In this document: positions 3 to 49,897 of the stretch, one piece after another | Numbering within the stretch: the stretch's first letter is position 1 | Layout of the letters: every line of letters begins with the position of its first letter | The notes under the pieces: model-generated | Databases searched by the model: none | Told to the model about the DNA's origin: nothing | The model's input: only the letters and a program-made list of their open reading frames with translations | Made by a program: the position numbers and the translations under genes | Origin: Hyphomonadaceae bacterium | GTDB taxonomy: Bacteria > Pseudomonadota > Alphaproteobacteria > Caulobacterales > Aquidulcibacteraceae | Reading direction: 5' to 3' | DNA length: 64,000 nt | NCBI GenBank assembly: GCA_019753175.1 | Contig: JAIELK010000003.1 | Coordinates: forward strand, 1-64,000

Positions 3-182
3 CACGCTTACGATGCGCGCGGCAATCTCACCGCCGACGGCGCGCGCAGCTTCGGCTACGATCTGGAGAACCGGCTCGTCTCGGTCACGGGCTCAGCGTC
101 GGGGAGGCTTCGTGACGCTCAGATAGTTTGGACGCGCCGCAGTCAGCTCAGGTCGCGCGCGCGTCCTGGATCAGCGCCCTGA
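3..182 (+). pseudogene. 3' remnant of an RHS/YD-repeat protein (gene continues upstream of the window)
   Basis: Frame 3 reads HAYDARGNLTADGARSFGYDLENRLVSVTGSAS, a classic YD-repeat; similarity stops at about position 105 and the frame stops at 180-182 inside the 3' end of the antisense Crp gene. Confidence 0.6.
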
Positions 183-837
183 GCTTGTCGCGCGCAACCA
201 ACCTGATGCCCGCGCGGCCCATGGAGATGAAGCCTTCGTCGACCCATTCGTGCAGCTTGCGATTGACCTTCTCGCGGCTGGCGCCGATGCGGCGCGCGAG
301 TTCGGTCTGCGTGAGCGTCACCGACGACCCGTCGCCGGCCTCGTCGAGCAAGCGCAGCGCGAGGCGCGCGCCCAGATCGAGCGTGTGCGCGTCCTCGAGC
401 GCGGCGTCGGCATGGCGCAGGCGGCGCGACATTTCCGCGACGAGCTTCAACAGCGCCCGCGGCTCGCTCTCCAGCGCGCCGATGGCCTGGTCCCTGCCGA
501 TGCGCAGAAACCGCGAGCGGCGGATGGCGCAGATGTCGGCCGAGCGGACGCCGCCGTCGAGCACGGCCATCTCGCCGATGAGGGCAGGGGGTTTCAGCGC
601 GGCGATGCGCACGTCCTTGCCGGCCTCGGTCGACGTGCGGACCTCGACCTCGCCTTCCAGCAGCACGTAAAGCGCATCGCCCTTGTCGCCTTTGGCGAAC
701 AAGAGCTTGCCGGGCTCGACGGTGACGGGCGCGCCCTGCTTGGCGAGCTTGGCGCGCGTCGCATCGCTCAGCGCGGCCATGAACTCGGCTCTCGCCAGCG
801 CCGCTTCGACGTTCTGGAGGTCGTGTTTGTCAGCCAT
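148..837 (-). CDS. Crp/Fnr family transcriptional regulator
   Basis: cNMP-binding domain (GDALYVLLEGEVEVR...GEMAVLDGGVRSA) and C-terminal HTH (TQTELARRIGASREKVNRKLHEW). Confidence 0.9.
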   Translation of the reverse strand: MADKHDLQNVEAALARAEFMAALSDATRAKLAKQGAPVTVEPGKLLFAKGDKGDALYVLLEGEVEVRTSTEAGKDVRIAALKPPALIGEMAVLDGGVRSADICAIRRSRFLRIGRDQAIGALESEPRALLKLVAEMSRRLRHADAALEDAHTLDLGARLALRLLDEAGDGSSVTLTQTELARRIGASREKVNRKLHEWVDEGFISMGRAGIRLVARDKLRALIQDARAT

Positions 838-49498: not shown

Positions 49499-49590
49499 GG
49501 TAGTGTTACCGACGTCACATCGCCTCGGTTAGGCTGCGGGTAGGGTCTGCTCATCGAAGCGATGGCGCTTCGAGACGAGGAGCCAAACCC

Positions 49591-49680
49591 ATGACCCGCA
49601 TGCTGAGCCTGATGATCGCGACCCTGACGCTGGCGCCGGTGGTGTACGCCACAGTGATGCAAGCCGCGCAGATCGTCTGA
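49591..49680 (+). CDS. 29-aa peptide, paralogue of next ORF
   Basis: MTRMLSLMIATLTLAPVVYATVMQAAQIV; gaggag upstream. Confidence 0.6.
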   Translation: MTRMLSLMIATLTLAPVVYATVMQAAQIV

Positions 49681-49712
49681 TCCGACCAACCCCGTTTTTC
49701 GAGAGCACTCCG

Positions 49713-49805
49713 ATGACCAAGTTCTACGCCCTGATCGCCGCCTGCGCCGTGTTCGCCCCGGTCGCGTTCGCCACCCTCTCCCAAGCCGCTCAGATCGTCG
49801 CCTAA
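49713..49805 (+). CDS. 30-aa peptide, paralogue of previous ORF
   Basis: MTKFYALIAACAVFAPVAFATLSQAAQIVA; shares AP-V-x-[YF]-AT-x-x-QAAQIV. Confidence 0.6.
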   Translation: MTKFYALIAACAVFAPVAFATLSQAAQIVA

Positions 49806-49897
49806 GCTCCCAGCGACCAGATGCGGTTCATTGGCCAGGGCGCGGAGCAAACTCCGCGCCCTTCGCTTTTTTGGCGTTCTACGCTAGCAGCGGCGCC

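Follow-up and report, generated by a model that had tools for sequence, protein, structure and literature searches.

The locus studied here raises the question of whether two very short reading frames encode real peptides and, if so, what these peptides may be doing in the cell. It lies in the window, the whole stretch of 64,000 nucleotides that was analysed, from the genome of a Hyphomonadaceae bacterium. As stated in the original prediction, two tandem ORFs occupy the same strand, one of 29 aa at 49591-49680 and one of 30 aa at 49713-49805 (stops included), with a gap of 32 bp between them; their products have in common the motif APV-x-[YF]-AT-x-x-QAAQIV, and the DNA identity of the two frames is 61%. 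The pair itself was correctly recognized, yet the genome has at least eight such units, each served by its own CRP-type promoter, which had been missed, and the boundaries 49591-49805 hold for the ORFs but leave out, on the 5' side, the promoter and hairpin (49505-49573) and, on the 3' side, the terminator (49837-49862). On balance, we favour the interpretation that the two ORFs are a unit in a family of short, exported and probably cleaved peptides whose genes are dispersed and co-regulated from class II CRP-type promoters. The elements of the unit are as follows:

49505-49518, plus strand: CRP-like palindrome GTTACCGACGTCAC, one mismatch in the window, the predicted activator site with its centre at -41.5; 105 of the 109 units have it.
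49541-49546, plus strand: -10-like hexamer TAGGGT (family TA[CG][CG]TT), predicted +1 at A49553, from column frequencies over 105 units.
49554-49573, plus strand: hairpin right at the 5' terminus of the predicted mRNA (UCGAAGCG-AUGG-CGCUUCGA), supported by covariation.
49577-49582, plus strand: GAGGAG, ribosome-binding site of peptide 1 directly 3' of the hairpin, from the sequence and from a GGAGC conserved in the leader alignment.
49591-49680, plus strand: peptide 1 gene, MTRMLSLMIATLTLAPVVYATVMQAAQIV (pep1 subtype), supported by the family HMM and by selection on the family.
49701-49705, plus strand: GAGAG, likely ribosome-binding site of peptide 2 inside the 32-bp gap, from the sequence only.
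49713-49805, plus strand: peptide 2 gene, MTKFYALIAACAVFAPVAFATLSQAAQIVA (pep2 subtype), supported by matches in its own genome and in 28 of 29 genomes of the genus and by selection.
49837-49872, plus strand: intrinsic terminator with an 11-bp stem (AGGGCGCGGAG/CTCCGCGCCCT; hairpin 49837-49862) and a T run, from the sequence and comparable hairpins in the family.

Judged by their sequences, peptides 1 and 2 match far beyond chance, and they are not alone. When peptide 2 was compared with its own genome, 15 matches were obtained at E <= 1 and 16 at E <= 10. Four of these reach E < 1e-12, and an identical pair is found at C1:112911-113122. The peptide 1 gene likewise has an identical copy on C1 and a partial copy at the end of C31. 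Nearly all copies of the genome are tandem pairs (contigs C1, C6, which holds the window, C7, C11, C13, C19 and C29), one further copy being divided in the assembly, with its parts at the ends of C31 and C32. The C1 copy is 98.4% identical to the window along no more than 318 bp, which run from the promoter and end immediately ahead of the terminator. Among the other genomes of the genus, 28 of 29 carry 3-24 peptide matches, the exception being a genome that is 57% complete; draft genomes may under-count the copies, since some of these lie at contig ends. An iterated profile over 125 fetched loci defines family membership, and the family so delimited comprises 221 members, representing 152 unique peptides. 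These form 109 distinct units, of which 60 are pairs, 46 are singles and three are arrays with 4-5 members. In the arrays (L055, L064, L092) the gaps are 85-350 bp, unlike those of the usual pairs. When 398 genomes of the order were searched with the profile, strong matches occurred only in genera g1, g8, g20, g22 and g23, all of one family, and a wider spread was rejected because the other matches in the order, with few exceptions, stood alone and were borderline, with E between 6e-5 and 0.01. None of five members scored against Pfam and NCBIfam passed a curated cut-off, and literature searches returned no description of the peptides; the family is undescribed in the libraries and papers searched.

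Several members depart from the common form. Six loci (L172, L173, L175, L178, L241 and L274) hold a 35-residue subtype (MTATISNKILTLALAAALLLPGALATLNQAAQIVA and relatives), which is the one near the CRP-like gene, and in three others (L035, L086, L247) the members are longer, at 44-46 residues, with a polar extension at the N-terminus ahead of the usual K-F-[YF] start. At L239 (G020:C1:1951835) the promoter is intact and the member is shortened (MLIRFAVLMFGLVSFVPDAFGGLFG), likely a decaying copy. On C32 (L041), some 140-230 bp ahead of the copy at the contig end, is a 22-residue ORF, MLKLILALFALVQPLIASRFLL, whose start region (TTAGGGTGCTCATC) is similar; it adjoins the split copy of the window's unit, and it has no match in Pfam.

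As for the genomic setting, about half of the genus has a unit less than some 4 kb upstream of an HDAC gene, and others have none at that place, so that the locus of the window is an old one that has undergone gains or losses; no clean empty site was seen, and the flanks differ. An origin from a phage or other mobile element was rejected, given that phage, plasmid and IMG/VR searches returned no match to the family and that the HDAC-linked position is kept in about half of the genus. The unit was also rejected as part of an HDAC or enoyl-CoA hydratase operon, because it has its own terminator and the other copies have different neighbours.

The claim of coding selection after duplication is borne out by about 150 homologues. 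Synonymous-biased substitutions among homologues, whose absence had been named as refuting, were found in 142 unique 30-codon genes, with pN/pS values of 0.08, 0.13, 0.20 and 0.28 across identity bands from 95-100% down to 80-85%, which indicates that the peptide frame is under coding selection. In the alignment, Q-A-A is almost invariant, the proline at -8 from Q is kept in 91-100% of the members and the alanine at -6 in 89-98%, and the small residues of the A-x-A site are strongly conserved. The positions of a pair encode distinct and maintained subtypes, pep1 and pep2: on a tree of 117 genes the position label takes 10 changes, against 39 in shuffles, and since this tree, built on 81 columns, has little resolution, we claim no more than the clustering. 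This finding suggests that the two peptides probably do different or complementary jobs.

The units also have a promoter in common. The palindrome has the family consensus GTGACN4GTCAC, that is GTGAN6TCAC, and in 105/109 units, small variants included, it stands at a fixed spacing of 36 nt ahead of the TA[CG][CG]TT hexamer; it is absent from the other four. Taking the hexamer as the -10 element and its first T as -12 places the palindrome centre at -41.5. This corresponds to a class II CRP arrangement, in which both the -10 element and the start site, the A of TCATCG, are predicted from the alignment. Conservation between units ends at the left edge of the palindrome: mean between-unit identity in excess of shuffles was 0.003 in the 60 nt before it, 0.17 in the promoter, 0.19 in the leader and 0.23-0.25 in the ORFs. 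A search was made with the promoter pattern, without any peptide sequence, and the reversed pattern served as the control. The pattern matched 33/60 genomes of the family and the control none, and in the species collection it retrieved 24 stretches, all from MAGs named Hyphomonadaceae, Caulobacteraceae or Alphaproteobacteria. Twenty promoter sites outside the first set were read, and 18 of them were followed by a listed peptide of 29-35 residues of the same kind; at the remaining two (L176, L177) a similar short ORF, outside the ribosome-site filter of the ORF list, opens after the promoter, that of L176 being read as MSLSLKFFSLALAVAFVLPAALTVMNQAAQIVT. Members found through the promoter include those of genera g20, g22 and g23.

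Perfect palindromes are few. The genome of the window has five, four at peptide units, and eight relatives have 8-18 each, compared with 0-4 for the reversed pattern; a global CRP regulon was rejected on account of the five perfect palindromes of this genome. The only one of the five that does not lie at a unit (L227, C19:29034) precedes a 95-residue protein of no known family with one hydrophobic segment, and a homologue of this protein in G018 (L230) likewise has a palindrome. Of 20 fetched palindrome stretches, mostly not at known units, several led to further members and others lay before exported proteins or within genes. Palindromes were seen ahead of EipA, an envelope integrity protein (L235 in G020), of CARDB-type exported proteins (L231 and L234) and of an OmpA-like exported protein (L229), which is a hint of an envelope regulon.

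The transcript probably begins with a hairpin, since the predicted start is the A of TCATCG. Among 45 leaders, selected for a simple hairpin (some other leaders fold otherwise), 95.5% of cells pair; six of the eight base pairs show changes on both sides, and such double changes amount to 37 cells, against 11.6 in shuffles and at most 8 in slid controls. At the other end, hairpins comparable to the terminator of the window follow 79/108 units, against 16 in shuffled sequences. A regulatory leader, one of the roles suggested, is disfavoured in the sense of one acting in cis on the downstream gene, as the units usually have their own terminator and no neighbour is common to the copies.

Which protein might act at the palindrome? 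The window itself contains a candidate:

148-837, minus strand: CRP-like regulator gene, the best activator candidate for the palindrome, on the grounds of Pfam domains, recognition helix and co-occurrence.

Its product has the cNMP_binding (PF00027) and HTH_Crp_2 (PF13545) domains, both above cut-off, and fits the full cNMP signature, IGEMAVLDGGVRSADICA, so that it is predicted to bind a cyclic nucleotide. The recognition helix, SREKVNR, has the pattern RE...R of the contacts made by E. coli CRP. The nearest solved chain is 3i54, a CRP-type regulator of M. tuberculosis (E 6.6e-23), and the adjoining gene, at 945-2033, is a CcrM-like methyltransferase gene. The genome encodes six full CRP/FNR proteins; the one on C17, taken as a control, was rejected as the regulator because of its patchy distribution across the family (14/60). 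Another CRP/FNR protein, at L184, has a recognition helix similar to that of the candidate. At >=51% identity the candidate is present in all five genera that have units and in one (g25) of the nine that lack them (Fisher p = 0.003, a test that overstates independence because the genera are related). There are two exceptions, g25 itself, in which no unit was found, and G011, which has units and in which the regulator was not found. In 9/17 g1 genomes examined, a peptide unit lies 0.15-3.6 kb downstream of the regulator orthologue on the same strand, and by coordinates G015 also has a unit downstream of it; this linkage is probably one inherited arrangement. In the genome of the window the contig begins just past the regulator gene, so that its downstream flank falls outside the contig. 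We infer that the protein encoded at 148-837, as the best candidate activator, probably binds the palindrome.

With regard to the products, the prediction of one hydrophobic segment followed by a signal-peptidase-like A-x-A site is upheld by the roughly 150 homologues. Each peptide opens with a short positive N-terminus (MTK/MTR), followed by a hydrophobic core of some 11 residues, and contains an A-P-x-A-x-A segment; the columns of the 60 pairs and 46 singles display the features of Sec export and signal peptidase I cleavage, namely the positive N-terminus, the core and small residues at -3 and -1. A lipoprotein of the entericidin kind was rejected because the cysteine is not conserved: it stands at -13 from Q in 33% (pep1) to 78% (pep2), within the hydrophobic core, and there is no lipobox. 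Of the roles originally offered, that of an exported or membrane peptide is the one that our data favour, and the choice between these two depends on cleavage. The main rival, a serious one although we hold it to be somewhat improbable, accepts the same co-regulated family and supposes that the peptides stay uncleaved as single-span small inner-membrane proteins modulating a membrane complex. The best 19-residue windows reach a mean hydropathy of 2.13 in peptide 2 and 1.88 in peptide 1, the length is nearly constant at 29-31 residues with a conserved C-terminal QIVA, and the distance of the proline from A-x-A varies with the genus, as could happen with a helix kink. On the other hand, the last ten residues, which include N/S, Q and Q, show only weak hydrophobicity (0.94 in peptide 2), and the small-large-small pattern (A-[FMYL]-[AS]) that directly follows the proline fits signal peptidase I and is not needed in a helix; it is this pattern, seen in g1, on which the cleavage reading rests. 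In genera g20, g22 and g23 the A-x-A site is shifted by two residues and a proline stands at +2 of the likely cut, which would make cleavage there less clean, and because of this shift the uncleaved membrane peptide keeps a high probability.

The other alternatives place the function outside an exported product. A type I toxin-antitoxin system, in which small hydrophobic toxins are restrained by antisense RNA, had been listed among the possible roles, and the units do encode small and hydrophobic products, in tandem and dispersed copies with a structured 5' end, traits of known type I toxins such as Ldr, Ibs and ZorO (PMC8309996, PMC4147584). Nevertheless, nothing conserved or antisense was found beyond the promoter, leader and ORFs: excess identity falls to 0.08 between genes and 0.06-0.07 after them, leaving no conserved element that could encode an antitoxin. 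No sigma-70-type promoter was found on either strand of the unit in a scan with the E. coli consensus, which is weak in this lineage. Moreover, the hairpin leaves the ribosome-binding site free, the activator-type promoter is common to nearly all copies, and the peptides have an export-type A-x-A site, so that we regard this role as very improbable. Scarcely any more credit, and if anything slightly less, can be given to the transcripts being chiefly regulatory RNAs with the peptides secondary. Short terminated transcripts with a conserved 5' hairpin would suit such RNAs, but the amino acids are under selection (pN/pS 0.08-0.28), Rfam gave no match in the window, and the hairpin conserves its pairing while its sequence varies, a pattern more in keeping with a stability element than with an sRNA that acts by base pairing.

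Comparison with known systems helps to place the family of exported peptides that we favour. The promoters resemble the class II promoters of E. coli and M. tuberculosis CRP in the GTGAN6TCAC palindrome and in its centre at -41.5 from the predicted start, and the candidate regulator resembles these proteins in its cNMP domain and RE...R helix. In E. coli the CRP site is TGTGAN6TCACA and serves about 200 transcription units (PMC4117774), and the site of the CRP-dependent reporter CC(-41.5) is centred at the same distance (PMC12360894), whereas the genomes counted here have 5-18 perfect palindromes each, many of them located at peptide units. Among peptides, similarities in size, export sequence and short tail are found with the short secreted precursors of Firmicutes (SHP/Rgg and iAD1-type), which have 20-35 residues, an N-terminal export sequence and a short C-terminal tail. 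However, the present family belongs to a Gram-negative lineage, has up to 24 paralogues per genome and has no known peptide receptor gene beside its units; the gene linked to one unit in those 9/17 g1 genomes encodes a CRP-like protein of cNMP type. Entericidin-type lipoproteins, which are a tandem pair of short exported products, share the tandem arrangement, although the present peptides lack a lipobox.

Up to two dozen scattered copies, nearly all with the same promoter, look like a dedicated co-regulated peptide output. We hypothesize that a CRP-family activator, probably cyclic-nucleotide-dependent and probably encoded at 148-837, binds GTGAN6TCAC at -41.5, where it would replace the -35 element and recruit RNA polymerase (class II activation). 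The transcript would be about 300 nt long, with the conserved 5' hairpin probably protecting its end; it would carry one peptide gene or two (at most five), each with a ribosome-binding site of its own, and would as a rule end at an intrinsic terminator. Given the positive N-terminus, the hydrophobic core and the A-P-x-A-x-A segment, each product is probably exported by Sec, and signal peptidase I would most likely cut after A-x-A to leave a tail of 9-10 residues, such as TLSQAAQIVA or TLNQAAQIVA. A more ambitious version, which we consider unlikely, would be a Gram-negative, cyclic-nucleotide-controlled system of peptide communication or envelope signalling, in which a CRP-type regulator drives dispersed and diversified secreted decapeptides (T[LM]xQAAQIVA) whose two subtypes act together.

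These peptide genes fall below the usual size limits of gene calling and are missed by family libraries, and their common promoter offers a sequence handle by which new members can be found independently of peptide similarity. The candidate regulator makes the question of function testable genetically. Up to two dozen copies, a single promoter architecture and strong coding selection imply that the family may have an important function in the envelope or in signalling and, if the tails are released, it would represent an unusual multi-gene output of short peptides in a Gram-negative group related to Caulobacter.
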